Source: Owenia fusiformis (lineage: Eukaryota; Annelida; Polychaeta; Sabellida; Oweniidae). From it: 64,000 nucleotides of DNA. A program made the translations under genes and the position numbers. The stretch covers positions 11,195,196 to 11,259,195 of the forward strand of contig CAIIXF020000004.1 in NCBI GenBank assembly GCA_903813345.2, written 5' to 3'. The notes beneath the pieces were generated by a model, which had not been told where the DNA came from, did no database searches, and saw nothing but the letters and a program-made list of their open reading frames with translations. Position 1 is the stretch's first letter; each line of letters opens with the position of its first letter. Positions 20,293 to 62,640 of this stretch are shown in pieces.

Positions 20293-23200
20293 TCATGTTT
20301 TTGTCAAATTTCTCTCCAATGCCTTGGCCACTCTTAGAATCATGACGTCATCGTAATGGCGGCCGACAATCATGACACCTATCGGCAAACCTTCAGAAAA
20401 CCCAGCGTTTATGGAAATGGCCGGGTGCCCTGTTGCATCAAATGGAAATGTATTAGTTGTAAAACTCGATGCCTCGTCAAGCAATACTGCAATAGAATCA
20501 AATGTATATTTTAGTAGTGATGTTCCAGAATGTATCATTGGGCTAATATAATTATTTCATTTCCCTTGATAATATAATATAATATAATATAATATAATAT
20601 AATATGATACAATACAGTATCATATAGTATGATATAATATGATACAATATGATATAATATGATACAGGGCATATAAACGCAACCCAAGGAAATCGTTGTA
20701 TTTTGGAAAATACTTATTCAATTGTTTTAAATTTTTCAGGAAAGAAAGAAGTGACTGTGTTTGTATAGCTCCTGAAGTTACATTAAATAAACACTAATAA
20801 ATGAGCTCCTGTAGTTGTTAGTTGGTTAAACACTAATTTACTTGTAAACAAGATGCACTGGACACCTCAAAAGACAAAAAACGCAATCAGGGGTGACTGC
20901 AACCGCAAAAACACTTAATAACTTTCAAATGTTGAGTCAGGGAATGGGTCCGGTTATCGACTTAGAATCGAAAATATTCAAAATTGTAATGTCTGAAAAA
21001 CCAACTCAATCACACATATTATCAAACCTTGATACCCCATCCTTCTTCTAAGAGTCAAAGAATATCAATTTGTAACACAAATTGTAATTAATGAAGAATA
21101 TTGGCATCAAAGACATATCCTCCAAAACATCGTTTAGTCTCTATGTATTGACATCGAATGGTATTTCTTGATGAGTAAATTGGTGTTTATCTGGGTAATC
21201 AAGGGATTACAGTTACTCAAAGTTACTGAGCAACCAATTTTGACACTTCAATTGTGTTGGTGGAGTTGTATATAAATTCATGCTTATACATGTCTTATGG
21301 TTTCAATTTTATAATCTCTATACGTGACCCTAATGTTTAACAGTCAGAATCAATAAAAGCAATCCAAACCATAAAGCTGTGCTCAGTGTGAAGCGACTTT
21401 TCTTCTGATATTTCCTTCATCAGATGGCAGCCATCTTGGTTTTCCCCTTCAAATTAAACTCGCGGAAAATCCCAAGGTTTGAAAAAAATTAAAAATCTTA
21501 AAGAGATACTTATTTTAACTCTCAGCCGGGGGTTAATTATACATCAAAACTCAGGGACAAGTACATTTACTTATCAAATATAACTAGGACAGTAATAAAA
21601 AGCATATTTCACAAACATTTTAGTGAGGGACGAAAATACCATATATCCTGCCTCATCCTTTGAATCAAATCATCTTCTGTCAATGTATGGTAAATCCGTG
21701 GAATGAAATTAAAATCACTCCAGGGACTTCACAGTCGTGGTCGAAATGCTTCAAAACGCAGTCAAACGCCCTGGTTCAGGTAGACTTAAGAAGGTATTTT
21801 GACCATGACTGTAAAGTCCTTGGAGTGATTATAATGAAACTCCACAAATGAACCACACATTAATGTGAATTATTTGTGCCAAATGTAAAGTGCCAAAACA
21901 CTACGGTTAGAAGGTTATTCGGTTTTATTGCTGTAGCAGTCACCTCTGACTGCTGCGTTTTTCGTATTTTTCTAATACTCATGTCTTTTGTGAAGGTGTC
22001 CAAGGCATCATGTTTTACAACTAGCTTACAAAGCAGCTATACATACACAGTCTCTCATTTCTTTCCCGAAAAATGGACACAATTGGATTAGTATTTTTCA
22101 AGAGCGATTTTTGGGTTGCGTTTTTTTAACACCTCGTATAATATAATATAACCAATTCCGTATCAAAATCTTGACTGCATTCATTTATACTTGTTTATAA
22201 TTACAAAAAGAGTCCCATTTTCTTTACCTGATAATTTAGCATCGACATCTGGCAATTTAGGCGCTTTGTATGGCAACGTTGGCATCACAATGACATCATA
22301 CGTTTCCAATGCTTTGTCATATGCAGCTGTCAATGCAATAGTCAAGTTCTGTGCCTTTCCGTAGTGTTTTGACTGGTAGTTACGTTTTGTATATTCTCCC
22401 CAAAGGCACATAGATTGATAGGTCGGTGGTAAATCGTATGGTCTCAACTTCACATGCTTTTTAAAATGTTCCAGCATTGAGTTTGGATAGAAGCCCTTGT
22501 TTCCAATATTTGCACCTGTTAATTATAAAAGTCTCATTTGAAACAATTCATATTGTTCATCTTAAAGCCAACGAAAAAGGTCTAAAAAGTCCAAAGGATT
22601 CTAGCAATACTATCCAACATGAATCTATCTGTTGAGACTCGATCAAGATCTCCTGGGAAAATGAGGATTTCAAGCAGGCTGTATTAAATTATAATTGGGG
22701 TACAATCAACTTTATACTGTTTTCAAATTATTTTGCTGATGTATATACATGCTTGTTTGTTCAGTTGTATATACTTTACATGTTGTATTATACGTGTTCA
22801 AGTCAAATACGCAACGGATAAATGATAAAGTCGTTCAAATCATAGATAAACGACCGAGAATTACGTGGCCGAGAATGGAAATTGTATGGATTTACCTATG
22901 AATCCTTGAAGATATGTTCCCTCAGTAGCCTGCGTTGAGGAAATGGGTTTTCCTAAAATCAGAAGTTACACAAACAAAACAAATAGTTATACATATTTCA
23001 AAATGTAGCAGGATGTATTATTAATGTTCACGGACACCCAACATTGATTTTTATGAATTTCTTATCGAACTTCTCATTGTTTTTTTAAGAAACAGCCCCT
23101 GTCTTTGCATATATGCATACATAGTAAATATTTATTTAAAGATATGCTATACAGATATGTAGGTCAGTATTACATAATCGTGAAATGAATAAGTCTGAAT

Positions 23201-26200
23201 ATATCATTGGTCAGAAAACACTAAAACCTGCTTGAAACTGTAAAAGTTTATACACTCTATTCCACACTGTATAGAAATAAAATAACTTACACTATAAGTA
23301 ACTGTGAGCCAATCATTGCATAGAAAAAACTTTATGCACTGTTTATAAGATTCACTGAGACAAGTGGGTCAATACTTCGTGTACTTTATGTGCTCTCACA
23401 CAATTACCTTCCCTTGCATAAAGTTGCTGTACAGTTATATGTAACTGAATATTGTATATTCATCACAAACAACCTTAGCAAAATGATGGTTCTACGAAAT
23501 GGACGGTTCGCTAAAACCAATAAACCAGGCAATTCAGGCCTATTTGGAAAGAAACTAAATAGCGTGATAGCGAATGAGGATAGTAAGTGAAATATATTTT
23601 GCAAAGGTCAGCTTGTAAACTACTGGGTAACCCTAAATGATGAGAAATATGTACAAAATGTGTTTTGCATTATTTATTCATATCCCAATGATTCAACTCC
23701 TTCACTGCATCTAATAAGGTATAGATACTAATTACGGGACATTTAGGAATTAAGTGACTAGACCAAAGCAAGCATGTTTGAGATTTTAATGATTTTAAAT
23801 AAATTACCACTTCATTATTTGCTTTTAGACATTCAATCAGTTTTATTTGTCCAACAAACCATATTCACAATTGTTCAATCCAACGAAGATTAGGGGATAA
23901 GCTATAGAGACCCCTCCATTTGTCCGTCCATCCATCCTTCAACTAATCAACAGCAACACCAAAGTGTAGCATATCCCATCGAACAGCCATGGCTGGCATT
24001 TTTTTACAAACAAAGTATACAGCAAAAATGGCAGCCATTTTTCAAAATGGCCACCTTCTACCAAAAGTGTCATTAGACAGTGTGCCACGCTTATTGTATT
24101 CACGCATCAAATATGAACAAAATCGCTCCACTACTTTTCGAGTTATAGTAAAATACGTTAAAATGACGGCCATTTTTCAAAATGGCTGCCTTCTACTAAA
24201 AGTGTCATTAGACAGTGTGCCATGCTTATAGTATTCACATACCAAATATGAACAAAATCGCTCCACTACTTTTCGTGTTATAGTAAAATACGTTAAAATG
24301 GCCGCCTTCTACCAGAAGAGTCATTAGACAGTGTGCCATTCATATACCAAATATGAACGAAATCGCTCGACTACTTTTCGAGTTACAGCAAAAATCATAA
24401 AATAACGAGTAAAGGCCGCCATAGTTCAATTCTTTGAAGCAAATGATTCTAAAAGTACAACATATCTTTGAAAAAATAGTGTGAAATTGTAAAAAATATT
24501 TTGCAATGTGTGAAATTGAATTAAAGCACATGATTCAATGAATAGTGGATGCTTCAATTCACTTATGTCTTCTAGTCTAGGCTTTGAATTCGGACTACCA
24601 CCCTCGTTCATAGTCTAGAATCAGGACATATGTTAAATTTAATCATCTACAATGCATTGACTCATTGGCTTAAATCTTATAATATGCCTATCAATATAAT
24701 ATGTTTACATTATTTGAGTATCATCTCAATGCTTTAATTTTAATAGAATTATTTTAATATTTTACTAACTGTATAGTATGTAGTTTGCATTACTGTTGAT
24801 AAATAAATAAATGATTGCACTGTTCAGTAAAGAAATATAGCAATTGTATTATTTAAACTGACTATACATTATAGAAATGATTTTCATTGAAAAATCAAAT
24901 CAGTACCAAAATTATGGTTACCCTGTAGTAGTGAAAGGCACATTAGAAATGAATATCACCCCCTTCAATCTATTTTTACAGGTTTTTATGATTATTTCAG
25001 ATTTTTCTATAGTTTGCGTAACCAGGACGGTGAATTTTCTTCATTTTTCATCAAACATTTCGTCTTACCAATATTTATTATATCTGTCAATTTTATCAAA
25101 ATCGCGCCGCTACGTTTGAAAATAATTCAAATTATGTAGTTTTTCCCATTGAGCTCCATTATAAAAATGGAATTTTCAAACTCAATATTTTAAAATTCTA
25201 CGTGGTGAAAAGTTGCATATTGAGTAGTTAGTTAATGTTATGGTGTTAAAAATTCAAAACAAAAAGGAATAAAGAAAAAATGCCACAGAGAAGTCTCAAT
25301 AGAGTATCTTTAAAACAGCTACCTCATCATTATAGTTTATGTATGATATAGCTACTAGCCTGTTTTTAATGAATTTTGAACAAATATTTTACTCTACTGA
25401 GGTAAAATACCTGTCCATCTTTCACGAGTGATATTTCAAGGAATATCATCTTGTAAACGTGTCAAATATTTGTTTTATTATATCGCTATCTATCACCATC
25501 TGTTAGTATTATGGAATTCGACATTGTGAATAGCTCTCTGCATTGATCACTGTCTACAGTAGACCTAGTCTTGATTTCTCACTTCACAAAACAATTTTTA
25601 TTCCCAATTCACGTTTTTGCACATTTTTCTTCATATCGCCCCACTGTCCTCCATCAAATCAACAAAAACTTTAATCGGATGTTTAGCTGATTTTCGAGTT
25701 ACTTGTGTGCACCTTTTCAATTATTTCTAACTTTTCTTCGTCAGAAATTCGAATCTGTTTCGACTAATCATACAGTTGCCAGCTAGATAGTGATATAATA
25801 ATGTTGAACTCGTTTGGTTGCTTGATATGTTACTACTTGCCGTATGTATGCATAGGAATGGAGGTATCTTCTACTGTTGCACCAGCTTTTCTCCATACTT
25901 CAGCCGTTGCTTTGACAACATTAACGACATCAGACTCACATATGGCAAATCCCTCCTCGACAAAACCTATTTTCAAACCTTTCACGCCACAATCAATCTA
26001 CAAAAAAACAAAATTGTTAAATATAGTGATATTAAGCATTTCTGAGGATAGCAATTTCTCTGAAGGCCTTAAGGTGCATCATTTTATTATTATATCTTTT
26101 TCTTACTAGCTTAGTATATTCAGGAATATCCATTTCTCTTTGTCGCGGGTCGAATCCATCATGCCCAGCCAATACTTCTAATAACAGAGCACAGTCATCC

Positions 26201-28894
26201 ACTGTCTTCGCCATTGGACCAAGATGATCTATTGTGGTTTCAATGGAGCATGCACCACTGTAAGGAACTAATCCGTATGTTGGTTTGAGACCTACTATAC
26301 CACACCAGCTAGATGGAACCCTAATGGACCCTCCTTGATCGCCACCTATTGCCAAATCGACCACTCCACCAGAAACCTGATTGTAAAACAATTTTTATCG
26401 AGTCGTTTTCAGCCTTACATCATCAAATTCTTAACTTAATTATGGACATTCCTGGACTGACATTTTACATCTAGTCAAATCCTGTATATTTTTACAGGAA
26501 AATCTATTTTCCTCTGTATTACAGCTACATAATCGCGTAACGATTTCATACCTTATATTTATTTGCAACCATGACAACCTTATGACATCAATTTATTATC
26601 GCTTGTACAGATGATAGGAAATCATGTGAACACTAAATCAGTTATTTAACCTTAGTAAGCCTTCATTCTTGTGCAAAAAGAAGCTATCAAATGTCTCTCT
26701 ATATTTCAAGATATTTCAAATTTGATGTCATAATTACATCAACCTAGTAATGTCAAACTAGATCTTACAAGAGCTGCACATCCGGAGCTGGACCCCCCGG
26801 TTGTCCTTGTGTTGTCTCGTGGATTTGTAACAGGTCCACTGATAGAGGTAAAACTATTGGAAGTGAAACAAAGATCTTCACAAACGGCCTTCCCTAAAAT
26901 TCTACCACCTATAACAAATATAAAGTACCATAAACATTAACAAATATGTCAGACGCCTGCTTCTAAAATCAGTTTACCAAATAGCATCAGACTCATGTAT
27001 TGTTTAGGACACTGCTGAGTAACTATAAACATATACTTGGACATCTTAGACACAGTAAATACCTGCTTCTAATACTCTCGTAACAACAGTAGCGTCAAAT
27101 TCAGGGATATATCCTTCAAATGTTTTACTGCCATTTGTCATTGGAACGCCTGCTACAGCAATGTTGTCTTTAATTGCAACAGTTTTACCCCTCAACTTGC
27201 CATCTTCGGATCCTTTAATATCTAAGCACCGGGCCCTAGATAATCCAATTCGTATATAATCGTGAATGTTTTACCATAATATTTGCAATATTTATTAATG
27301 TATGGAGTATGGAGTTGAATGAGAATTTTGGATTGAACGATAGTTTTGGGCAAGAGATTGAATTATCAGATGGGGGATCGAACATTTTGCCTATTGTTTT
27401 CACAAAGATTTATTTTTTACTTTACACATGGGTTGTATAACCTCGACTTCTTTCAGTACGTTAATTTACCATGCATTGTACGGATTCTCCTCAGGCTTTG
27501 GTTTCTGACCAGGTGTCCGTGGGAACTTAACTTCTAGTGTGGGTTCAACCAGTTCCTCTAGCATCTGATATTGCTGTTCGATACCTTTCATGTTTTCTGG
27601 AAGACAAGTATGGAAAGTGTCTCTGGGTATATCCAGATGATGAAGATAAAACATGGATGATATATGGGTTACAAATTAAAAGAGGCTATATGTGACGCGA
27701 TAAAATGGTTTATTTGTAAATCCAATTGGCCTACGACTATGTTAAGTACGTACTGCCAGACTTAAAAAAGCATGATTAAAATATATTTCAATATTTAAAT
27801 AGTGATATGTAGTATCAAAGTAAAGTCCACGAGTAAAAGTATCATTAGTACTAGTCTAGTGTACAGTACACTTTAATCTTTGTCGTACCATGTCAAGTTG
27901 ACTCATTTGTCAATTGGCCTGGAGGAGAGAACGTATATATTCGAGTACATTAGAAATACATGTATATAAAGACACTAAAAAATGGTATTTTGGTAAACAG
28001 ATATTTATTATATTTGAGCAGGGTCCAGCCCACAACCCAGTTTACGGAGTAACTGCTCCGATATTATTTTATCTCATTTCTGACAAAAAAATGTAAAAAT
28101 AAGTGTAATGCGAGTAACCTTACTAACCCTTCAGCTAAAGTCATGTTTTGTTATGCTTCGTATTTTTTTTATTAAACTATGAAATGCCTAAGTATCCAGC
28201 TTAAAGTGTGCGCCAAAGTTTAAAACTGCGCAGGCGCACCGCTCTCGCTAACCTATATAAAGAGATTACCAGGTACAGGCTTCAGAGGTAAGCCAGGAAG
28301 GTGAACAATCTTCGTTCCGTGTTGATTCCCCGTATAATCGTAACCAAGTAAGTTTCACCATTGAAATTAAAAATTACTATTAGATATACTTTGTAGATGT
28401 TATTTATGAAGCTATTTAGTGTATGCATCAATCAAATGGCCCATTTTAAACATATAAAAAGTATTTGTGTTTTGTTTCCCAGGGAATTGTATTCCCATGT
28501 AGTAGACACATAAATAGTGTACATCATGTAGTACTTGAATAGCCAGGTTTATATAATACTGAAGTGATTGCTGACTACATGCACACGATTACATGAATGA
28601 AGGCCTGATATTGATATAGCTTGCATACCTAAATAAAAAAGAAACTCTTCTAATCCCCTAATGTAAACACGGCGGTATACGTAGCCCGATTTATCGGAGA
28701 CTTTAATGAGAAAAAGACTACCATTGTTGTTGGATTGAGTAAAATCTGAAAGTCATTTTACCTTTATGCTGCTCGAGTTGGTCATCAGTGAGGTTGAATC
28801 CGAGATCTGCAGATATCTCCCTCAGTTGCTGAGTAGTTGGTAGATCCACTGCGCGTGAAGTATATATTCCCGAGGTATTTTTCTCTTCAGGCAT
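20293..28894 (-). CDS. Amidase-signature enzyme, gene C (chimeric copy)
   Basis: Exons: 28894-28762, 27596-27470, 27235-27063, 26908-26769, 26376-26107, 25997-25841, 22952-22896, 22515-22228, 20486-20293. In phase throughout, 512 codons. Catalytic K109, S184 and S208 are intact with the Gly-Gly-Ser oxyanion segment ([14 protein letters not shown]). Start reads MPEEKNT, so residue 2 is Pro where B has Ala. Exon 6 begins IDCGVKG where D has IDGGVKD. Intron 6 starts GCAAGT. Exons 1-3 follow gene B (for example [13 protein letters not shown]), exons 4-9 follow gene D, with the switch inside exon 3. Reading frame and splice sites look functional, so a working recombinant enzyme is plausible. Confidence 0.93.
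20663..22138. mobile_element. 1.46-kb TIR element, copy in gene C intron 8
   Basis: Ends TACAGGGCATATAAACGCAA and the complement of TACGAGGTGTTAAAAAAACG, with TA at each border. A near-identical copy is at 30989-32447 in the same intron of gene D, so it was inserted before the duplication. Contains an internal hairpin around 21710-21830 with arms like AATCACTCCA. No transposase frame was recognised. Confidence 0.7.
23150..25308. other. 2.2 kb present in gene C intron 6, missing from gene D
   Basis: Gene D reads straight through at about 33437. The junction shows TTTAAA at both sides in gene C, so this is either a deletion in D at microhomology or an insertion in C. At 23985-24400 it holds three imperfect 150-bp units that include GTCATTAGACAGTGTGCCA and AAAATGGC(C/A)GCC. 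No gene seen. Confidence 0.6.
28201..28706 (+). mobile_element. TTAA-flanked 506-bp element, copy 3 (uninterrupted)
   Basis: Same borders and length as copies 1 and 2. Carries the GCGCAGGCGC motif and TATATAAAGAG. It is the empty-site reference for the nested transposon in copy 2. Lies in intron 1 of gene C. Confidence 0.75.
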
Positions 28895-30019: not shown

Positions 30020-33000
30020 TCATGTATTTGTCAAATTTCTCTCCAATGCCTTGGCCACTCTTAGAATCATGACGTCATCGTAATGGCGGCCAACAATCAT
30101 GACACCTATCGGCAAACCTTCAGAAAACCCAGCGTTTATGGAAATGGCCGGGTGCCCTGTTGCATCAAATGGAAATGTATTAGTTGTAAAACTCGATGCC
30201 TCGTCAAGCAACACTGCAATAAAATCAAATGTATTTAGTAGTGATGTTCCAGAATGTATCGTTGCGGTGATAAATTTTTTTTATTTCCATTGATAATATA
30301 ATATCATTTAATATAATATGATAAAATATAGTATAATATAATGATACAATATTGTATAGTATAATATGATACAATATATATAGAGGAAACCCTATGATTT
30401 TTGAGGGATACCATTTTTATCCATGAATGGATATCGCTCATCTCCAAGAGTGAGCGCAGCGAATGAGTGGAGATCGGCGATATCCAAGAGTGGATGAAAA
30501 TGATAGCCGAGAAAATCATAGGATATCATATTTATCCGATGGTCGCTATTTTTGTATGGACTTCAAATAATTTGACCTTAAGTTGCTGTTTTTAATTCTA
30601 TTCTATTTTTCATTTCATTTTCTGTGACCTTATTTTTATAAAATGATTGCATGAAAAAAATGTAACTCATTTTTACTGAGCATATAACCTTGGAACTTTT
30701 CAATTTTTTTTCCAAATATTGTTTCTATTTTTTTATTTCTATAATTTTTTTTCAAATTTTTTTCAATTTTTTTCAACATTTTTTCAATATTTTCAAAAGT
30801 TTTTTTTCAATTTTTTCCAAACTTTCAAATTTATTCAATTTTTTTTCAAAATATTTTTTAAAATAGTATCCGTCGGATACGATTGGATATCACGTCAGAT
30901 GGAACGGATACGATTTTAGTGCCGTATACGAAGATTATCTTGTGTTGGTTTCCCCATACAGATTTAGTATCCATCGGATAAAATATAATACGGGGCATAT
31001 AAACGCAACCCAAAGAAATCCTTATATCTTGGAAAATACTTATTCAATTGTGTTAATTTTTTCAGGAAAGAAAGAAGTTACTGTGTATGTATAGCTCCTG
31101 TAGTTGTTAGTTGGTTACTTGTAAACAAGATGCCTTGGACACCTCAAAATACAAAAAAACGCAGTCAGTAGTGACTACAACCGCAAAAAACACTAAAACA
31201 CTTCCGAATCATTGTGATTTAGCTTTTTAAAGGATGAGTCAGGGAATGGGTCCGGATATCCACTTAAAAAATATTCAAAATTGAAATATCTGAAAAACCA
31301 ACTCAATCACACATATTATCAAACCTTGATGTCACATCCTTCTTCTAAGAGTCAAAGAATATCAATTTGTAACACAATTAATGAAGAATATTGGCATCAA
31401 AGACATATCCTCCAAAACATCGCTTCGTCTATTTGTATAGACATTGAATGGTATTTCTTGATGAGTAAATTGGTGTTTGTTAATGAAGGGATTACAGTTA
31501 CTGAGCAACCAATGTTGACACTTCGATTGTGTTGGTCTCTATACATGACACTAATGTTTAACGGTCAGAATCAATAAAAACAATCCAAACCATAAAGCTG
31601 TGCTCAATGTGAAAATTTAAAGTGGCGACTTTTCTTCTGATATTTCCTTCATCAAATGGCAGCCATTTTGGTTTAACCCCTTCAAATCTTAAAGATATCT
31701 AAAAAAAGATTTTCTGCATTCTTCCTGTATCTTTAACTTATTTCTACTTTGTATGCCATACATGTTGCCATTGGTGTTTTTTCTATGATGACGACTATTT
31801 GAATAATGTTATGATACTTATTTTAACTCTCAGCAGGGGGTTAATTATACAACAAAACTCAGGGAAAATGGCATTTACTTATCAAATATAACTAGAACAG
31901 TAATAAAAAGCATATTTCACAAACATTTTAGTGCGGGACCATAAGAACATATATCCTTCCTCATCCTTTGACACAAATCATCTGTATTCATTCAATGTAT
32001 GGTAAAGGTAGAGTGAAATTAAAATCACTCCTGGGACTTTACAGTTATTGTCGAAATGCTTCAAAACGCAGCAACGCCCTGGTTCAGGTAGACTTAAGAA
32101 GGTATTTTGACCATGACTGTAAAGTCCCTAGAGTGATTATAATGAAACTCCACAAATGAACCACACATTAAATGTAAATTATTTGTGCCAAATATAAAGT
32201 GCCAAAACACTACGGTTAGATGGTTATTCGGTTTTATTGCTGTAGTAGTCACCTCCGACTGCTGCGTTTTTCGTATTTTTCTAATACTCATGTCTTTTGT
32301 GAAGGTGTCCAAGGCATCATGTTTTACAACTAGCTTACAAAGCAGCTATACATACACAGTCTCTCCTTTCTTTCCCGAAAAATGGACACAATTGGATTAG
32401 TATTTTTCAAGAGCGATTTTTGGGGTTGCGTTTTTTAACACCCCGTATAATATAATATAACCAATTTCGTATCAAAATCTTGACTGCATTCATTTATACT
32501 TGTTTATATTTACAAAAAGAGTCCCATTTTCTTTACCTGATAATTTAGCATCGACATCTGGCAATTTAGGCGCTTTGTATGGCAACGTTGGCATCACAAT
32601 GACGTCATACGTTTCCAATGCTTTGTCATATGCAGCTGTCAATGCAATAGTCAAGTTTTGTGCCTTTCCGTAATGTTTTGACTGGTAGTTACGTTTTGTA
32701 TATTCTCCCCAAAGGCACATAGATTGATAGGTCGGTGGTAAATCGTATGGTCTCAACTTCACATGCTTTTTAAAATGTTCCAGCATTGAGTTTGGATAGA
32801 AGCCCTTGTTTCCAATATTCGCACCTGTTAATTATAAAAGTCTCATTTGAAACAAATCATATTGCTAATCTTAAGGTCTAAAAAGTCCAAAGGATTCTAG
32901 CAATACTATCCAACATGAATCTATATATTGAGACTCGATCAAGATCTCCTGGGAAAATGAGGATTTCAAGCAGGCTGTATTAAATTATCATTGGGGTACA

Positions 33001-36000
33001 ATCAACTTTATACTGTTTCCTAATCATTTTGTCGATGTATGTACATTCTGGTTTGTTCAGCTGTATATACGTAACATGTTGTATTATGTGTGTTCAAATC
33101 AAATACGCAACGGATAAATGATAAAGTCGTTAAAATCATGGATAAACGACCGAGAATTACGTGGATGGGAATTGATATGGTATGGTTTTACCTATGAATC
33201 CTTGAAGATATGTTCCCTCAGTAGCCTGCGTTGAAGATATGGGTTTTCCTAAAATCATAAATTACACTGTCAAAGCAAATAGTAATACATATTTCAAAAT
33301 GTAGCAGGATGTATTACTAATGTTCACGGACACCTAACATTGATTTTTATTAATTTCTTATCGAACTTCTCAATGTTTTTTTAAGAAATAGCCCCTGTCT
33401 TAGCATATATGCATACATAGTAAATATTTATTTAAAGCAGCTACATCATCATTATATATATTATATGTATGATATAGCTGCTGGTCTGTTTTGAAAGAAT
33501 TTATTAACAATTATTTTACTCTACTGAGGTGAATACCTGTGCATCTTTCACGAGTAATATTTCAAGGAATATCATCTTGTGAAAGTGTCAAATATTTGTT
33601 TTATTATATCACTATCTGTCACCATATGTTAGTTCAATGGAATTCGACATTGTGGATTGTTCTCTGCATTGATCACTGTCTACAGTAGACCTAGTCTTGA
33701 TTTCTCACTTCACAAAAAAATATTATAATTTTTTATTCCCAGTTCACGTTTTTGCACATTTTCCTTTACATCGCCTCACTGTCCTCCGTATAATCAACAA
33801 AAACTAATCGAATGTTTAGCTGATTTTTGAGTTACCTGTGTGCACATTTTCAATTATTTCTAACTTCTCTTCGTCAGAAATTCGAATCTGTTTTGACTTA
33901 TCATACAGTTGCTAGCTAGATAGTGATATAATAATGTTGAAATCGTTTGGTTGATTGATATGTTACTACTTGCCGTATGTATGCATAGGAATGGAGGTAT
34001 CTTCTACTGTTGCACCAGCTTTTCTCCATACTTCAGCCGTTGCTTTGACAACATTAACGACATCAGACTCACATATGGCAAATCCCTCCTCGACAAATCC
34101 TATTTTCAAATCTTTCACGCCACCATCAATCTACAAAAAGAAAATGTGTGATCCCTAATTCTTCAACAGTAGTATGGTCAATTTGAGGAGTGGGAAAAAG
34201 CATAGTTTTAATGCAAGATCACTCCCCGGTGTTTTGAGTAATGATTGTGCCTTTGAGAGTCTGACCAATGATAAGAAAAATACACTTTTATATCACAATA
34301 CAGATGTTACTTTAGAAACTAAAGTTAGAAATATTTGAAAACATAAAAAATCACAGAAGTTTGTCCACCAAATAGGTATTAATTAACCATACTTTTGGAT
34401 CAACTAAAATAAAAATGAATTCAAGTTTTGCTTGATCCGCTACGCCATACGTCGTGTTGCTATAGTAACAACAATTATCTATTGTGACATCATATGACAA
34501 TGAGACTGTTTTATCCAAACTAAAATTACATTCTCCATTTACCTTGAAAAATTCAAGTAGATTGGTTGAAAAATAATGAAATGACAGATAAATTCCCAGA
34601 ACTTAGTGATCACCCTGTATTAAGCATATATGAGTCTACCAATTTCTCTGAAGACCTTAAGGTGCATCATTTTGTTATTATATATTTTTCTTACTAGCTT
34701 AGTATATTCAGGAATATCCATTTCTCTTTGTCGCGGGTCGAATCCATCATGCCCAGCCAATACTTCTAATAACAGAGCACAGTCATCCACTGTCTTCGCC
34801 ATTGGACCAAGATGATCTATTGTGGTTTCAATGGAGCATGCACCGCTGTAAGGAACTAAACCGTATGTTGGTTTGAGACCTACTATACCACACCAGCTAG
34901 ATGGAACCCTAATGGACCCTCCTTGATCGCCACCTATTGCCAAATCGACCACTCCACCAGAAACCTGATTGTAAAACAATTTTTATCGAGTCGTTTTCGG
35001 CCTTACATCATCAAATTCTTAACTTAATTATGGACATTCTTGGACTGACATTTTACATCTGGTCAAATCCTGTATATTTTTACAGGAAAATCTATTTTCC
35101 TCTGTATTACAGCTACATTATCGCGTATCGATTTCATACCTTATATTTATTTGCAACCATGACAACCTTATGACATCAATTTATTATCGCTTGTACAGAT
35201 GATAGGAAATCATGTGAACACTAAATCAGTTATTTAACCTTAGTAAGCCTTCATTCTTGTGCAAAAAGAAGCTATCAAATGTCTCTCTATATTTCAAGAT
35301 ATTTCAAATTTGATGTCATAATTACATCAATTAGTAATGTCAAACTAGATCTTACAAGAGCTGCACATCCGGAGCTGGACCCCCCGGTTGTCCTTGTGTT
35401 GTCTCGTGGATTTGTAACAGGTCCACTGATAGAGGTAAAACTATTGGAAGTGAAACAAAGATCTTCACAAACGGCCTTCCCTAAAATCCTACCACCTATA
35501 ACAAATATAAAGTACCATACACATTACCAAATATGTCAAACATCTGCGTCTAAAATCAGCGTACCTAATAGCATCAGACTCATGTATATATTATTCAGGA
35601 CAGTGTTGAGTAACTATAAACGTGTACTTGAACATCTGTGAGTAAATACCTGCTTCTAATACTCTCGTAACAACAGTAGCGTCAAATTCAGGGATGTATC
35701 CTTCAAATGTTTTACTGCCATTTGTCATAGGAACGCCTGCTACAGCAATGTTGTCTTTAATTGCAACAGTTTTACCCTTCAACTTGCCATCTTCGGATCC
35801 TTTAATATCTAAGCACTGGGCCCTACAATAATCCGATTCATATATATTACCATGAATGCTTTGCCATACTATTTGCCCGGGAATAATTGTAATATCTATA
35901 TGAAACTTTTGGGGTTGAACGATAGTTTTGGGCAAGAGATTGCAAGTATATGGGGAAATTTATTTATTCATTGCTCTACATTCGGGTCGCTTGTGAATTT

Positions 36001-44324: not shown

Positions 44325-45259
44325 TAAAAGCATTATGTCAAATACAAAGTGGTTTAATTCGATGAAAACTAAAAATTTCGAAATTGACAATTTTCGTCTG
44401 CCATCTTGAATGCGAAGGTGACGGCAGTTACCTTCGCTTGATATCCACCGGTGTATCTATGATTGGTTATTTCGCGGACAATGTGATTGACCTCTTGAGA
44501 TAATATTCAATATCTTCAGTGTAGTTTTGTCCAAGTTGATTAGCTGTGTTCTGTTGAACCCAAGTGTGGATAATGTCTATTTATGTTCGGTGGAGCGTTG
44601 AGATTCTCGAACATAAATGCTTTCTGTTGGCTGAACATAGAGTTCAGTTCAACTTTGAGTTATGTTATGCCTTGGTCACATTTGCTACGATTTTCACTGC
44701 GGCGTCCGGCAGATTGAGTATTGTGTTCTAAATTGAATACAAATTTGAACAAAACACTCAATCGGCCGGGCGCCGGCCGATGGATCAGAGAAATGTGACC
44801 CAGGCATAAGTGAGAGATCGGAGAGGATATTTTCGTGCTGAGAGTAGAGTGTATAAAAAACATTCTGAGCTTTGTCACCGTTTATCCAACGCAGTACACT
44901 TCGTTTTATTCAATCAACCAATATGGCAGTCGAATATAACTAGAAAGTTCGATCCACATTTGAAAAAGAATACCACATGACATTCTGACTTGTTTTTTCA
45001 CTTTATCTAACGCTTTGGTGTGACTCTGATTGACTGTATGACAAAACACGAAGCAATCTCCAAGTAAATCCCTAAATGCAGAGGGATTAATTATTTCCTT
45101 ATGATGCACCCTCCCGTTGTCCCCCTGAAATTCATTAAAGTTCGTAAAATAAATATATGGAAAACTATTTTTCTTGGTTATTTTTTTATATTGGATATTA
45201 GTATCGTAACTTTATTACTATTTAAAATATTTCTTTTCTTCCCATCAATTGTCTCGTAT

Positions 45260-45500
45260 TACAGTTGGGGACAAAAATAAATGGCAGGTCGATTTTCGAT
45301 CACCATTCCCTAATTATGGTGGTCTGAAAGCCCATTATTTCCAATATTGTCTAGATACATATCCCTTAAAATTTGTATATTTTACATTTTGTATAATCTC
45401 ATCCACTGATTTATGGCCTCTTGTAAATTCTCTTATTTTTAACATGGGAAATCCTCACTTCAGCAAATCCACCTGTCATTTATTTATGTCCCCAACTGTA
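45260..45500. mobile_element. 241-bp TA-flanked MITE, copy 2
   Basis: Same ends and length as 39816-40056. It splits the first recognisable 101-bp satellite unit (GTCTCGTA on its left, GTAAACACACGATAC on its right). Confidence 0.88.
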
Positions 45501-47327
45501 GTAAACACACGATACATGTCATTCAATGCATCATATTAAAGTGGGAAATACGATAACGTTTGTCTTTGTAGACTGAACATTATTAATTGTCTGGTCTTAA
45601 ATAACAAACGAAGTGTGTTACTGAATGCACCATATTAAAGCAGGAAAATACGATAACGTTTGTCTTTGTAGACTGAACATTATATTAATTGTCTCGTATT
45701 AACTAACGCACGATGCATGTCACTCAATGCACCATGTTAAAGTAGGAAATACGATAACGGTTGTCTTTGTAGACTGAACATTATAGTAATTGTCTCGTAT
45801 TGACTAACACACGATGCATGTCAATCAATTCACCAAATTAAAGGAGGAAATACGATAACGTTTGTCTTTGTAGACTGAACATTATATTTATTGTCTCGTA
45901 TTAAGTAACACATGATGCATGTCACTCAATTCACCATATTAAAGTAGGAAATACGATAACGTTTGTCTTTGTAGACTGAACATTATATTTATTGTCTCGT
46001 ATTAAGTAACACATGATGCATGTCACTCAATTCACCATATTAAAGTAGGAAATACGATAACGTTTGTCTTTGTAGACTGAACATCATGTTAATTGTCTCG
46101 TATTAACTAACACACGATGCATGTCACTTGATACACCATATTAAAGTAGGAAATACGATAACGTTTGTCTTTGTAGACTGAACATTATATTTATTGTCTC
46201 GTATTAAGTAACACACGACTGAACATTATATTTATTGTCTCGTATTAAGTAACACATGATGCATGTCACTCAATTCACCATATTAAAGTAGGAAATACGA
46301 TAACGTTTGTCTTTGTAGACTGAACATTATATTTATTGTCTCGTATTAAGTAACACATGATGCATGTCACTCAATGCACCATGTTAAAGTAGGAAATACG
46401 ATAACGTTTGTCTTTGTAGACTGAACATCATGTTAATTGTCTCGTATTAACTAACACACGATGCATGTCACTCAATTCACCATATTAAAGGAGGAAATAC
46501 GATAACGCTTGTCTTTGTAGACTGAACATTATATTTATTGTCTCGTATTAAGTAACACATGATGCATGTCACTCAATTCACCATATTAAAGTAGGAAATA
46601 CGATAACGTTTGTCTTTGTAGACTGAACATTATATTTATTGTCTCGTATTAAGTAACACATGATGCATGTCACTCAATTCACCATATTAAAGTAGGAAAT
46701 ACGATAACGTTTGTCTTTGTAGACTGAACATCATGTTAATTGTCTCGTATTAACTAACACACGATGCATGTCACTTGATACACCATATTAAAGTAGGAAA
46801 TACGATAACGTTTGTCTTTGTAGACTGAACATCATGTTAATTGTCTCGTATTAACTAACACACGATGCATGTCACTCAATTCACCATATTAAAGTAGGAA
46901 ATACGATAACGTTGTCATTGTAGACTGAACATTATATTTATTGTCTCGTATTAAGTAACACACGATGCATGTCACTCAATGCACCATGTTAAAGTAGGAA
47001 ATACGATAACGTTTGTCTTTGTAGACTGAACATCATGTTAATTGTCTCGTATTAACTAACACACGATGCATGTCACTCAATGCACCATATTAAAGTAGGA
47101 AATACGATAACGTTTGTCTTTGTAGACTGAACATCATGTTAATTGTCTCGTATTAACTAACACACGATGCATGTCACTCAATTCCCCATATTAAAGTAGG
47201 AAATACGATAACGTTTGTCTTTGTAGACTGAACATTATATTTATTGTCTCGTATTAAGTAACACACGATGCATGTCACTTAATACACCATATTAAAGTAG
47301 GAAATACGATAACGTTTGTCTTTGTAG
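45501..47327. repeat. 101-bp satellite array, about 18 units
   Basis: GTCTCGTATT recurs every 101 bp (45691, 45792, 45893, 45994, 46095 and on). One shortened unit lies near 46200. Units fall into two main variants: TTATTTATTG...AAGTAACACATG and TGTTAATTG...AACTAACACACG. Each unit contains, on the minus strand, CTACAAAGACAAACGTTATC, which is also the last coding part of the oxygenase gene at its right edge. Confidence 0.95.
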
Positions 47328-50300
47328 GCAAGCGATCTTTGGGTCTGTTGGAACTATGACTCGATGATGCTGCAAAAAAATACAACGATTCAAAATCAAA
47401 ACATTTAACACGATTTCCTAATAATTGAACAGCGTTGGTACAACTACGCCGCATTTATTGTGTATTTTTGTAAAACATCATCATTCGGTGAATCAAATAA
47501 ACATATTAGATAAATAAAGGCGACATTCAGAGATATTAAGGTAATTAGACTATAACATCGATTGATCGACCAATTCGTTACAGACTCAATATCAATATGT
47601 TATCTCCAAACATACTGTAGATGATGGTTTATCTCGAACTCGAATGGTTATTTCTTTTCTTTTAATCTGCATTTATAAGCAACACTATCATATTAAAAAC
47701 ATTATTTACCACTTCCTTCAGCCTGTCACCTGTGTGTTGGGCCAACAACTGATTAGCCTGGACAAGTATAGCACCTTCCTCTGGAGCAACGTCAACAAAT
47801 TCACCATTGTTTTCAACCTTAAATATGACATATATCTATAATGTGTATACACTTTGATTTGCATTTCTAGAAAGACTTCTCAATAGATGGTATGATGATT
47901 TAAATCGCTTCAGCAAAGATGGCCTGTGAGTAGTCTGTATCTAAATAGTAAATAAGCAGGTACCCGTATTGGTTTTACAAAAAATACGAGATCAATTTTT
48001 ATTGTATCTGCAAACATTTCATCCGCATATTTAGCAGTATTTAGAATTGGGGAAGTATCATATGTCGGCTGAATGAGACGTTTTTGCATATTTAGCCTTT
48101 TCTATTCATGTATGGGCGTGTCGCAAAAAGGTCGCACACGCATTGTTACACATTTTCGCTTTTTAACACCACAGAATGTGACGTTTTTTGAGAAAAATGT
48201 ACACATATGGAAATCCTTTCGTCCTCCACATTTGCCTCTATATCTCAAAATATTTAAGGCGAATAACTCTGATATCGTATATGTATTAACAATGGGATAG
48301 AAGCATCATAAAACACGAATCAATTGATATTTTAGGTGAAATAAATATACGTGTTGCTGTGCTTGACAATAGGCGAATGGCGTAAATTAGCCCTTTTATA
48401 TTTTAATGAATTTTGAAAACCTTTCGTCCTCCACTTTTCCACATACAACAGAAAACACATACTTTTGCGAACAAAATCATCTATTTATTAATAAACTAGC
48501 TAGAGTTTAAGAGCAAAATAATCATGTATGATTTATTAAAAATTGATCTCGTATTTTTTGTTTAATGTACACCTGAAAAGTTGAAGGTAACAAAAAATGA
48601 GCAAAAAAGGTCGCTGTCAACAGATTCTATTTTCAAACTCTATGACGTCACAATATGGGACGCTTACTAAAATTCATCCTTTGAAATAAAACTTCCATCT
48701 ACCTTTATCGAGACGAAAAATAAGTATAATAGTCATATATTGTTTGAGTTATGAGCGTTTAAAGACGAAAAATAATTCAAAATGTAACGTGTCAACAGGG
48801 GATATTTGCCAGATGTGTTTTGGTAAAAAACTCTTTTTTAAAAAAGAATGCGCAAGAATCGTGAACGGAGTTTATTAATCTAAAAACTTCATCGAATCAG
48901 CTTTTAAATGATATATAACTTTAATTAGAATATTATCTTATAATCCGGGGAATCAAAGTTACATTCACGAGATTTAAAAAACAAATGCGCCACCTTTTTG
49001 CGACACGTCGTGTGATATGCGCTTAGAATTCAATTTTCATAAAGGTGATGTCACATGTTGAGATATTTCACATTATTCAACCAAAAAGTATGACCATCAT
49101 ACATTCCTACAAAAGAAATAAATTACGCACAAAATAACTTCTAGGATACCTAGATTGTGATTGTTTACTTTCATTTTATACCTAGAAAATCAAATAGTTA
49201 CTGACCTGCAAGCCTCCAATGTTATCCTGAAACAGTAAACTCAGAATACCCGGATCAGAATGCGCCCGTACTCTTATCTTTCCACATACGTCTTCATCTG
49301 TAAGAGAAAACGATTATTTTAAGAACAGTTTGAATATGAAGAGCTCTTAAAATGATCATTGTCTCATTTCATTTAAGCATGAAAAGTATGAATTGCAGGC
49401 CCGTAACCAGGATTTACAGGGGGATTTACCAAGGGGGGAGCTTTTTGACAGTTTTGGCAAAAATTCATGCGAAAAGTGCACAGAATGGTGAAAAAATGCA
49501 TGATACTGAAAGAATTTCTGCCCAGGGGAGAGCAGCCGCTCCCCCCCCCCTCTTGGCTACGGATCTGAATTGTTGGATTTTCTAGATATTACGTACGCAT
49601 TTGATAAAGGAAACTTACTTGTCTGAATCGCTGGATAATGATTAAACTTAACACTTTTAGATCTTTCCTCTTCCGAATTGAATACTTGACATAGTCTCTA
49701 AAAAGTACAGAGACACATGCACTACAAATCTTTAGCAACAATTGATATAGTGACACAATCATTTGATGCTGTAGGAGATCTTCTTGATAAACGTGCGTCG
49801 TGCGTCTTAAAGGGTGACGCGTATCGTTTAGCAAATCGAACGCTCGTTTCTGGTGTTGCTCACCATTTAGTATAAAAGGCTCGATCCCGGAATAATACTC
49901 AAGGGTTCGAAGGCTCGAGGTCGTTGTGTCAACACCTCTAACTTTTATATAACATTGGTACAGTTTAGATCGTCACACATTTATAAAACGGAGATTTTCA
50001 TTTTAACAAATATACGGGAAGCTTATCGGAACCCTTTAAAGCAAATGGAATTAGATTCATGCAATGATTTTTTAAACCAATAAAAATAATGCAAATCACT
50101 GCTATATCCCGGAATTTACTTATAAAGATAATGTTTTTGCACCGACCCAACAGGCGTATTTTTTGTTTTTAGCCTTTGCACATTGAGTGATTGATTAAAA
50201 AGAAATCACCAATGTATATCTCCATAGTTACTCACGGTATTAAGCGAGGCATCTAAAAGTTTTAGAACTCTTCTAATGACGTCATCACAACTAATCGAGA

Positions 50301-51330
50301 ATGCTTTCCACGAATCTGAGAAACCAGGAACTACGTCATCGGGAAATCCCTACAATATGCAAAGCTGATATATACCTTATTGTCAGATGTCCCTCAACGA
50401 TACAAAAACATGATGAATAAGTACCCATGTGGGATCTATAATAGTTTATTTGATGTCGAAACCATGCAATACCTAAATACAAGAAAACTAACCATTTTTA
50501 TATCAGGATTAAATATCAAACTTTCTCTGGTTTTCCAATATTCAGTGCCAATCCTGAAATAACAATAAATAGATAATAAGCAACACTAAAAATACTAATA
50601 TTCAGTCCATAAGCATAATATGATAGCTCATTGTGTTACCACGATCCTGTAATTCAGCGTTAAAGTTGGTTAAGATGCTGGTGGGTTCGATCCCCATTGG
50701 AGCGGATTGACATTTTTTCATAAGATCATGATTTTTTTTTGCATTAATAATTTATTTTCTTCCATTATGTACCTTGCAGCGTCCATGTTGACGTATGAAT
50801 GGACAACTGATCCAAGGCCATCTGTCTGCGCTGAGGATCTATCAACAAATCTGTTCTTCACGTCTTGCGGCAAAGCTAGGAAATCATTCGCTACTGACTC
50901 GGCATGCTTCACCTATTAAACGTGAATACACGAAGGAAACTAGGGGAAGGCACTAAAATACTATACACACCGCTAGCCGATAGCTGTTAGTTGCATTCGC
51001 GAATACAAGGCAAGACATAAAACCAACCAATATCAGTTCCGATAGCTCGAATATGATAATGCTTTCTAGACGTTTCACCCCGTGAACGTTTCACCCCTAG
51101 ACTGTTCACCCCTTAGACATTTCACCCCCTAGACATTTCACCCCCTGGACGTTTCACCAAAATAAACTGTGCTGTGTACTTACTTGACTCTCTTGAATCC
51201 CAGTGTTTCTAATGAACGCTACGCCACTATTTCTAATACTTTCCACTAATGAGTCAGCGCTCTCTTCTAGTGCAGATTGGCTAGTTTCACAACGCCCCAA
51301 ATCAACTATTGCAATAGGTGTCGCTGACAT
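47292..51330 (-). CDS. 2-oxoglutarate/Fe(II) oxygenase, isopenicillin N synthase-like, 3' end truncated by satellite
   Basis: Exons: 51330-51184, 50912-50773, 50553-50493, 50349-50236, 49697-49619, 49297-49206, 47817-47710, 47369-47292. Phases agree, except that a short stretch expected between 50236 and 49697 (about 10-20 residues) was not located. N-terminal block MSATPIAIVDLGRC and ALPQDVKNRF match the family DIOX_N region; DDVVPGF follows. The iron ligands are seen as HSD in RAHSDPGILSLLFQDN, followed by GGLQ, and a distal His in HHRVIVPTD. RQTLSYF corresponds to the RxS-type motif (RQSLPFF in isopenicillin N synthase). The frame then stops after FLL, 30-50 residues shorter than usual. 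Substrate unknown. It may be a pseudogene or a functional short form. Confidence 0.85.
49396..49567. mobile_element. 172-bp MITE with 5-bp target duplication
   Basis: AATTG flanks both ends (49391-49395, 49568-49572). Ends CAGGCCCGTAACCAGGA and the complement of CAGATCCGTAGCCAAGA. Internal runs of G and C near each end. Lies in the oxygenase intron between exons at 49619 and 49297. Confidence 0.8.
51068..51158. repeat. Minisatellite, 17-18 bp units
   Basis: Five units of the form CGTTTCACCCCCTAGA with small changes. Lies in the oxygenase first intron. Confidence 0.85.
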
Positions 51331-51905: not shown

Positions 51906-52877
51906 TCAGACTGTTGTAGAACTATTACTCATCGGGGTGCAAAATGCCCACTCGTTCAAGATGTAATCACGATGATATGTGTATTTGCACCATCTATAGG
52001 GGGCGCCCCGATTAAAGTCGCATAAGTGGTCATACTCCCGGGGACTACAACAATAGTCCCACGATGTACTATCTACGAAACACCAATAATAATTAAAATC
52101 CCCAGTATCACGGTGGAGTCCACACGGATGGTCGCTTCTACAGTTGTAGGGGACGTTGTCTTGCCTGTGTCCTGTCGTAACTGTACCTGCGTCGCCACAA
52201 AACTGCCACTCAGACCCCGATTCGCAATGGAGGAAATCTTCAGCGTGGTAGTCGCAAGCACCTGTGCAACAATAGTCCCAGTCGTCATCGAGGGTCGTGA
52301 AGCACCAGTAGTAGGCCTCTTCGTGAAACCCGCATCGGTGATCCGGTCTACACAGCGAGTTCCCAGCAGTGGTTGCATTCGCCATTACTTCGCTGCATAG
52401 AAATCCCCTGAAACGGGAATCTTTGCAAATCCCTTCCAGCTGCGGGGCCACATATTCACTGCGCTCGGACTCGAATTCAGATGTCAACTCCATTGGCTTG
52501 AATTCTGTCTCGAATTCAACTGCATTTTGTCGCGGAACACTAATAGGGTTGGCGCTGCAATCCGTATAACATGTATTGATTTGATTTGCGATATCATCAC
52601 GTTCCCGTAAATGTTCACACCATGTTCCCGCCTCCTGCAGGAAAGTATCTTCAAAACACTGCCCGATGTCACTTTCCGGGAAGCAATTGTCAATAAGAGT
52701 GTTCATAAAATACGCCTTGTGGCTGTCAACTTCAGGCTCGCTAATGCAGCCAAAAATGTCATTTCCGAGGCACTTTAAAACGCAACTTTGAAGCGTAGAC
52801 GTATCTGAATTTGAGGCATGGCTATCCGTCTTTCCCAGATATACGAAAAGACCGAGTATTGCAAACTGTCGAAACAT
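51906..52877 (-). CDS. Secreted cysteine-rich protein with two kringle/FN2-like modules
   Basis: 323 residues in one exon. The ATG at 52877 (MFRQFAILGLFVYLG) is chosen: it opens a typical signal peptide, and TTTGTTTGCAG ends three bases before it, so a 5' UTR intron probably lies upstream. After the signal comes an eight-or-more-Cys N-terminal segment (CVLKCLGNDIFGC to CYTDC), an acidic linker, then two repeats. Each has C-x4-C-G-x-H, YYWCF, WDYCC, and a following Cys-rich tail ending in EWxFC. The WCF-x-WDYC core resembles kringle and fibronectin type II signatures, but with an extra Cys (YCC). Function unknown. No introns within the coding part, unlike the neighbours. Confidence 0.85.
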   Translation of the reverse strand: MFRQFAILGLFVYLGKTDSHASNSDTSTLQSCVLKCLGNDIFGCISEPEVDSHKAYFMNTLIDNCFPESDIGQCFEDTFLQEAGTWCEHLRERDDIANQINTCYTDCSANPISVPRQNAVEFETEFKPMELTSEFESERSEYVAPQLEGICKDSRFRGFLCSEVMANATTAGNSLCRPDHRCGFHEEAYYWCFTTLDDDWDYCCTGACDYHAEDFLHCESGSEWQFCGDAGTVTTGHRQDNVPYNCRSDHPCGLHRDTGDFNYYWCFVDSTSWDYCCSPREYDHLCDFNRGAPYRWCKYTYHRDYILNEWAFCTPMSNSSTTV

Positions 52878-53099
52878 TTTCTGCAAACAAAATATACGAC
52901 CTATAAGGAAAATACTATAAACAGACTGGGCGTATCGAACCCCATTTTTGTTAATTTTGACAACCTACGATACTCATTTTATATATGTTGCAAACTAAAA
53001 AAAATCAAATCTATCTTGGATCACATTCTCATAAAAATATCAAAAATCCACAAATATGTCATAATTCTGTTCTATTAAAAACAATTACTTACCATTTGC

Positions 53100-61657: not shown

Positions 61658-61786
61658 TACGCCAGAACCTTCTAAAAAACGGGCAAACTAGTGACCAAAG
61701 CTCGAAATGTCTCTTCTTTGAGACTTCCAACAAAGGTAGTCTTCCTTGAATCAGTCCAAGGCATCATATCTGTATCACACGTACAT

Positions 61787-62105
61787 GTATCTGTCTTATA
61801 TGGATCTCAATCCAACAAAGTAGTCTTCTTTTAATCAGCTCAAAGCATCTAATCTATATCACGCTGGTATCTATCTTATATGGACAAAATGTGGCCCAGT
61901 GTTCACATAGGCTTGTGTCCATACCTTACTTTTGGTTGTATTTGTTGTATCTATCTTATATGGATCTCAATCCAACAAAGTAGTCTTCTTTGAATCAGTC
62001 CAAAGCATCTTATTTATATCAGACTTGTATCTATCTTATAAGGACAACTTGTGTTCCAATGTTCATTTAGGCGTGTGTCCATACCCTACTATGGTTTGTA
62101 TTTCC
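61787..62105. repeat. 160-bp tandem duplication
   Basis: Two units, each starting CTTATATGGATCTCAATCCA and containing AAAGTAGTCTTCTTT and TGTCCATACC. Confidence 0.8.
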
Positions 62106-62239
62106 TGAAATTACACAGAAATAGCATTAAAAACATGTAAATATCGCATTGTCGCTCCAAGCGACTAACCCCTTTTTGAGGTTGCTAAATTGTACCTGCG
62201 TTCGACGCATTATACAAAACCGTCAACCCACGATACAAG

Positions 62240-62640
62240 TAGACTTAAAGTCTTTTACGTCAGAGTTCGAACTGTACTGCATCAGAACAACTGCTCGACG
62301 TAATGGCTATAATGCCAAACATGATAACATTTTTTACGTCGGAGTTCCAACTGTACTTCAACAGAACAACTATTCGACGTACTGGTAATAATGCCAAACA
62401 TGACAACAATTTTTCGTCTGAGTTCCAACTGTACTTCAACAGAACAACTATTCGACGTACTGGTAATTATGCCATACATGATAACACTTTTTATGTCGGA
62501 GTTCCAACTGTACTTCAACAGAACAACTATTTGACATACTGGTAATAATGCCAAACATGATAACAATTTTCATGTCGGAATGTCAACTGAACTTTAACAG
62601 AACAACTGCTCAACGTAATGCCAAACACGTTCAATATAGA
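62240..62640. repeat. 77-bp tandem repeat, about five units
   Basis: Units contain CAACTGTACTTCAACAGAAC and ATGCCAAACATGATAACA. A decayed further unit lies at 62740-62860. Overlapping open frames on both strands are repeat translations. Confidence 0.85.

Follow-up and report, generated by a model that had tools for sequence, protein, structure and literature searches.

We analysed a stretch of 64,000 nucleotides from the annelid Owenia fusiformis (contig CAIIXF020000004.1, positions 11,195,196 to 11,259,195), hereafter the window, in which the last exon of a minus-strand gene runs into a tandem array of a 101-bp unit (Table 1). The exons were picked by eye, guided by homology and splice signals, and the resulting prediction has an ATG start and 272 codons in a single open frame without internal stop, with AG/GT borders at all seven introns. 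As judged by profile matches above curated Pfam cut-offs, the predicted protein is an Fe(II)/2OG oxygenase of the IPNS type (PF03171, 2OG-FeII_Oxy, E 3.8e-16, 59.7 bits, cut-off 23; PF14226, DIOX_N, E 2.4e-8, 35.1 bits, cut-off 27.3). Its alignment with the thymine dioxygenase 5c3o spans residues 7-270, and the HxD...H iron triad is intact, RAHSD from exon 6 and HHRV from exon 8 both aligning with 5c3o. The arginine of the RxS motif also stands at the homologous place, where the window protein reads RQT, that is, T for S. The order of HxD...H and RxS/T is the same as in thymine-7-hydroxylase and other oxygenases of the IPNS/DAOCS type (5c3o/5c3p, 1dcs, 1bk0); in a review, the RXS arginine (Arg258 in DAOCS) is described as binding the 2OG 5-carboxylate (PMC6097109). 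At some positions where 5c3o and the paralogous loci L011 and L016 agree, the window protein differs (N-x-G-D is replaced by QANQ and RW by QH), which may reflect relaxed constraint on the gene.

Several other features were noted in the window. Just upstream of the oxygenase gene lies a cysteine-rich stop-to-stop open frame of 352 codons with repeated YYWCF and DYCC (51906-52964, minus). Four tandem groups of similar open frames occupy 2510-4968, 11979-16258, 22181-26394 and 32490-35959 on the minus strand, two of them nearly identical in the listed frames; to judge from the motif GGDxxGS[IV]RxPxSxCG, these resemble amidase exons. Two adjacent arrays of ~80-bp units with differing consensus are found at 61726-62607. 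Genome-wide, PF16915, a family not known to occur outside annelids, gave three matches above its cut-off (28-38 bits), which is suggestive of an annelid, and a search for the COX1 family gave none.

Table 1. Positions of the oxygenase gene, the adjoining array and related features (window coordinates unless a locus is named)
Feature	Position	Strand	Remarks
Fe(II)/2OG-oxygenase gene, eight predicted exons	51330-47292	minus	
Exon 1, ATG start (predicted)	51184-51330	minus	homology of the protein to 2OG oxygenases begins at residue 7
Exon 2 (predicted)	50773-50912	minus	AG/GT splice sites
Exon 3 (predicted)	50493-50553	minus	AG/GT splice sites
Exon 4 (predicted)	50236-50349	minus	AG/GT splice sites
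Exon 5 (predicted)	49619-49697	minus	AG/GT splice sites
Exon 6 (predicted), HxD iron-binding pair (RAHSD)	49206-49297	minus	alignment with 5c3o
Exon 7 (predicted)	47710-47817	minus	AG/GT splice sites
Exon 8 (predicted), terminal, HHRVIVPTDPKIACLQRQTLSYFLL and stop	47292-47369	minus	distal iron histidine and R-x-T for RxS; intron position common to paralogue exons L017-L026
Stretch common to exon 8 and array	47292-47327	minus	36 nt, 12 codons including stop
AATAAA of unit 1, inferred to be the gene's poly(A) signal	47240-47245	minus	46 nt after stop
101-bp minisatellite, 18 units	45499-47326	minus	distal unit interrupted by insert
Unit starts 1-9	47326, 47225, 47124, 47023, 46922, 46822, 46721, 46620, 46519	minus	
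Unit starts 10-18	46418, 46317, 46175, 46074, 45973, 45872, 45771, 45670, 45570	minus	
237-bp insert	45262-45498		terminal inverted repeats (matching at 32 of 40 end positions), TA on each side; splits distal unit
Remnant of split distal unit (TAATACGAGACAATTGATG; last few bases arguable)	45243-45261	minus	followed by unique flank
52-bp array of paralogue	L016 283-1073, L025 2215-3005		one and the same array

The 101-bp array at the end of the gene

Exon 8 is predicted to begin after the acceptor TTTTGCAG and to read HHRVIVPTDPKIACLQRQTLSYFLL up to its stop. Its last 36 nt, stop included, are the start of the 101-bp unit, as a first-pass annotation of this DNA had reported and the sequence confirms; the rest of the unit is ~65 nt of downstream flank. 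That annotation counted about 18 repeats downstream of the gene, and there are indeed 18 head-to-tail units in total, but exon 8 contributes the first of them and 17 follow. The 17 spacings between unit starts are 101 nt (14 cases), 100 nt (two) and 142 nt (one, with a 41-nt partial repeat). LQRQTLSYFLL with its stop is exact in 13 of the 18 units, the other five carrying T>A, T>P, L>P and two frameshifts. RQTLSYF itself is found letter for letter in 15 units, and RQ[TAP]LSYF with an in-frame stop after it in 16, including the most distal; the statement that the motif is present in every unit was therefore slightly overstated.

Unit 1 has two differences from the consensus and the unit starting at 45670 is visibly the most diverged of the intact ones. 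There is no simple gradient of divergence along the array, since two units in its middle (46822 and 46175) differ from the consensus at seven positions each. Among the 14 of 18 units that are exactly 101 bp long, 2 of 35 columns vary in the coding part and 15 of 66 in the rest (Fisher p 0.048), a weak difference because the units share ancestry and the columns are not independent. AATAAA is present in eight of the 18 units (seven 101-bp units and the 142-bp one), a count that leaves out the split distal unit, whose AATAAA belongs to the insert. Thus, the unit looks like a gene-end cassette that would hold the last codons, the stop and a putative poly(A) signal together. Translation most likely does not extend to units 2-18, where the motif would be only DNA.

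At its distal edge, the array extends slightly further than called by the tandem-repeat finder, to a last unit split by the 237-bp insert. From its ends, this insert appears to be a small transposon-like element; a sequence with a similar beginning starts at 39818, and translated stretches are common to the two. The last bases of the unit (TTCAGTC) are absent from the flank at this edge, so the founding breakpoint is not clean.

As the first-pass annotation had suggested, we searched the 498-Mb genome for other arrays of the unit, and all matches fell within this one, with no copy found outside it in any of three DNA searches whose repeat counts are lower bounds. A 29-nt core with up to three mismatches gave at least 16 matches, 16 of 16 in the array (the reversed-pattern control gave none genome-wide); with the terminal 101 nt of exon and intron as query there were at least 18, and with three units at least seven, again all in the array. 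Where a satellite would form large arrays or occupy many loci, we found one array of ~1.8 kb and no other match. The array is one local minisatellite, and the label "satellite" that it first received overstates it.

The RxS motif in the paralogues and the missing C-terminus

The last exon of paralogue L011, used as a query, gave 18 matches, 10 of which (L017-L026) were examined. In all ten, as in the window gene, an AG lies three bases before HRV, and in all ten R[QK]S..FF is followed by continued reading past FF, HRV and tail lying on one uninterrupted exon. R follows H by 15 residues in the window gene and in five of six representative paralogues, and by 17 in L019. When the dinucleotide-shuffled array was joined to the unique part of the exon, R-x-[ST]-[LIVM]-x-[FYW]-[FYLIM] arose at the corresponding position 19 times in 200,000 trials, and the strict RQ[ST][LIVM]x[FY]F did not arise. 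When the real unit was tried at 202 combinations of offset and orientation, the true one alone fitted the motif. A chance resemblance to the RxS motif is ruled out by the shuffles and by these offsets. Given the common intron position, the H-R spacing and the shuffle results, RQTLSYF is, on comparison with the paralogues, homologous to the RxS motif, and the coding part of the unit descends from the gene. Both had been proposed in the first-pass annotation and are borne out.

The window gene stops two residues after YF, whereas the tails of the paralogues continue for 27-51 residues of open frame after FF (n = 10: nine of L017-L026 together with L014, L020 having been dropped as a near-duplicate of L019). 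This C-terminal region, which the Pfam models do not require, is also present in 5c3p, which shares it with L011 up to residue 332, but not with the window protein. In IPNS, a C-terminal helix is a proposed shield of the active site (PMC6097109).

The first-pass annotation had named an intact downstream C-terminal exon as evidence that would speak against it. With tail profiles of limited sensitivity, no displaced C-terminal exon was found past the array in the window. The highest score of the tail-only profile was 8.5 bits, for a 19-residue fragment (37114-37058, minus; about E 0.4 over 3,600 fragments), and that of a profile with RQS..FF added was 10.4 bits, on the wrong strand (13100-13393, plus). 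Left-out controls reached 24.3 and 29.7 bits with the tail-only profile and a third, L014, failed with -1.6, so a tail of high divergence would escape detection. That the region is missing relative to the paralogues thus stands, but the further claim that the array itself replaced it is not supported. Since 16 of the 18 units, the most distal included, hold an in-frame stop, truncation probably preceded or accompanied the founding duplication, unless conversion spread the stop later.

A second exon-edge array and known minisatellites

A second array was found in a paralogue (L016/L025, C1:11.936-11.938 Mb), where 15.2 copies of a 52-bp unit (97% match) lie in the intron before the homologue of exon 7. 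The unit joins the acceptor TGTTTTGCAG to the 32 nt that open the next exon; 15 copies are recognized at up to three substitutions and 13 are exact over 42 nt. The last copy runs on into the exon VASRDGTFVSATPVVDTVLVNIGDMMQRW, and the preceding exon ends with DDIGGLE before GT, matching intron 6 of the window gene. This array and its published precedent, discussed below, were not part of the first-pass annotation.

We ran a tandem-repeat finder on 14 2OG-oxygenase loci outside the window, judging overlaps by eye (L016 and L025 share the one array, and L011 and L017 are one gene). Among these 14 loci, no exon-edge array was found besides that of the L016/L025 gene. In L018, an intronic array of ~33-bp units (1266-1474) ends ~27 bases before the last exon and is without exon sequence. 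In a sample of 30 of 106 P450 matches, no locus (0/30) had a tandem repeat of period at least 15 and at least 2.5 copies overlapping the matched exon, to which this check was confined. Exon-edge arrays are thus no general feature of this genome.

The name "mirages" was given, in amphioxus Adh, to tandem repeats across exon-intron boundaries; lancelet examples include Adh3, the globins BflGb6 and BflGb9, TnC and PGBD5, and the data quoted in these reports suggest that splicing is left undisturbed (PMC3087553, PMC3902484). The mirages described there combine part of an exon with part of the adjoining non-coding DNA in units of tens to ~160 bp and have homogenized inner units, as the window array does. 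The 52-bp array also spans a splice acceptor, as mirages do, whereas the 18 units of the window array repeat the stop codon and 3' end of a last exon and no splice boundary. Human genes of segmental duplications contain variable internal tandem repeats, and minisatellite expansion has likewise changed the structure of recent paralogues there, sometimes at exon-intron borders (PMC2812944). The outcome in those genes is longer exons or introns or additional introns, whereas in the window array the coding part of all units except the first is located beyond the stop. In a literature search of partial coverage, we noticed no account of such an array at a stop codon. On this comparison, the window array appears mirage-like, that is, a minisatellite of a known kind whose new aspect would be its place at a stop-codon gene end.

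Origin of the array

We consider it highly probable that the gene was truncated past the RxS motif and that its last 12 codons with ~65 nt of flank were then tandemly duplicated, giving rise to a mirage-like array. An IPNS-type Fe(II)/2OG-oxygenase gene would have gained an early stop two residues past the motif; these codons with the stop and the downstream ~65 nt, presumed poly(A) signal included, would then have been duplicated in tandem and would have grown to 18 units through replication slippage or unequal exchange. Unit 1 would still provide the last codons, the stop and the 3' end, with units 2-18 most likely untranslated. This order of events and the exchange mechanism we infer, as we do the exon structure and the use of the first AATAAA. 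The reading draws on the observed homology of the motif, the structure of the unit, the truncation relative to the paralogues, the array in a paralogue and the finding of no second locus.

The reverse course, in which a pre-existing satellite landed in the gene and supplied RxS-like codons by chance, could account for shared codons that are contiguous with the array, and for the variation among paralogues of the residues just upstream (PKIACLQ). Yet the strict motif never arose in the shuffles and fits only one of the real offsets, and insertion of a satellite was rejected because no other copies were found genome-wide; we regard this course as extremely improbable. Nearly as hard to credit is an intronic array with a further exon beyond it that restores the C-terminus: the paralogues possess the tail and exon 8 has weak GT sites before its stop, but exon 8 runs straight into an in-frame TAA, HRV and tail are uninterrupted in all ten paralogue exons, and the tail profiles reach no more than the scores given above anywhere in the window. 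It is also unlikely, if less so, that the array is functional, whether by enforcing termination through successive poly(A) signals and stops or as a conversion store that rewrites the last codons. AATAAA in eight units and the lower variability of the coding columns, which are not independent, are in keeping with such a role; however, ten units are without AATAAA, and the marginal difference in conservation rests on the shared descent of the units.

A question of a different kind is whether the gene is dead or dying, its early stop having freed its end and the array being a neutral by-product. This is compatible with the origin by truncation and duplication proposed above and differs only as to the state of the gene. 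The missing C-terminal region, the changes at positions on which 5c3o, L011 and L016 agree, and the 36% identity over residues 172-270 to the relative that scored best in the rest of the genome all point towards decay. On the other hand, a long-dead copy would have decayed, and the predicted eight exons keep 272 codons free of internal stops and seven AG/GT introns; the iron ligands and the predicted 2OG-binding arginine also appear to be kept. Moreover, the enzyme could remain functional without its tail, as DAOCS with a mutated or truncated C-terminus is reported to retain activity (PMC6097109). On balance, we hold a dead or dying gene to be a serious possibility that nevertheless falls short of being the likelier state.

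Origin by truncation and duplication would make this locus a clear birthplace of a minisatellite, with the boundary of the unit inside a coding exon and the parent gene still adjacent. More speculatively, and in our view improbably, the array could be a cassette store of RxS codons, stop and poly(A) signal; sequence would pass between this store and the gene, and the last 12 codons would undergo concerted evolution with the non-coding minisatellite. Exon-edge minisatellites would then be a recurrent mode of mutation in this 2OG-oxygenase family outside lancelets, at exon starts and gene ends alike. With this array, the mirage type of lancelets would come to include a gene end at a stop codon and possibly a second phylum, the annelids, and the array offers a testable case in which the coding end of a gene may evolve in concert with non-coding repeats.
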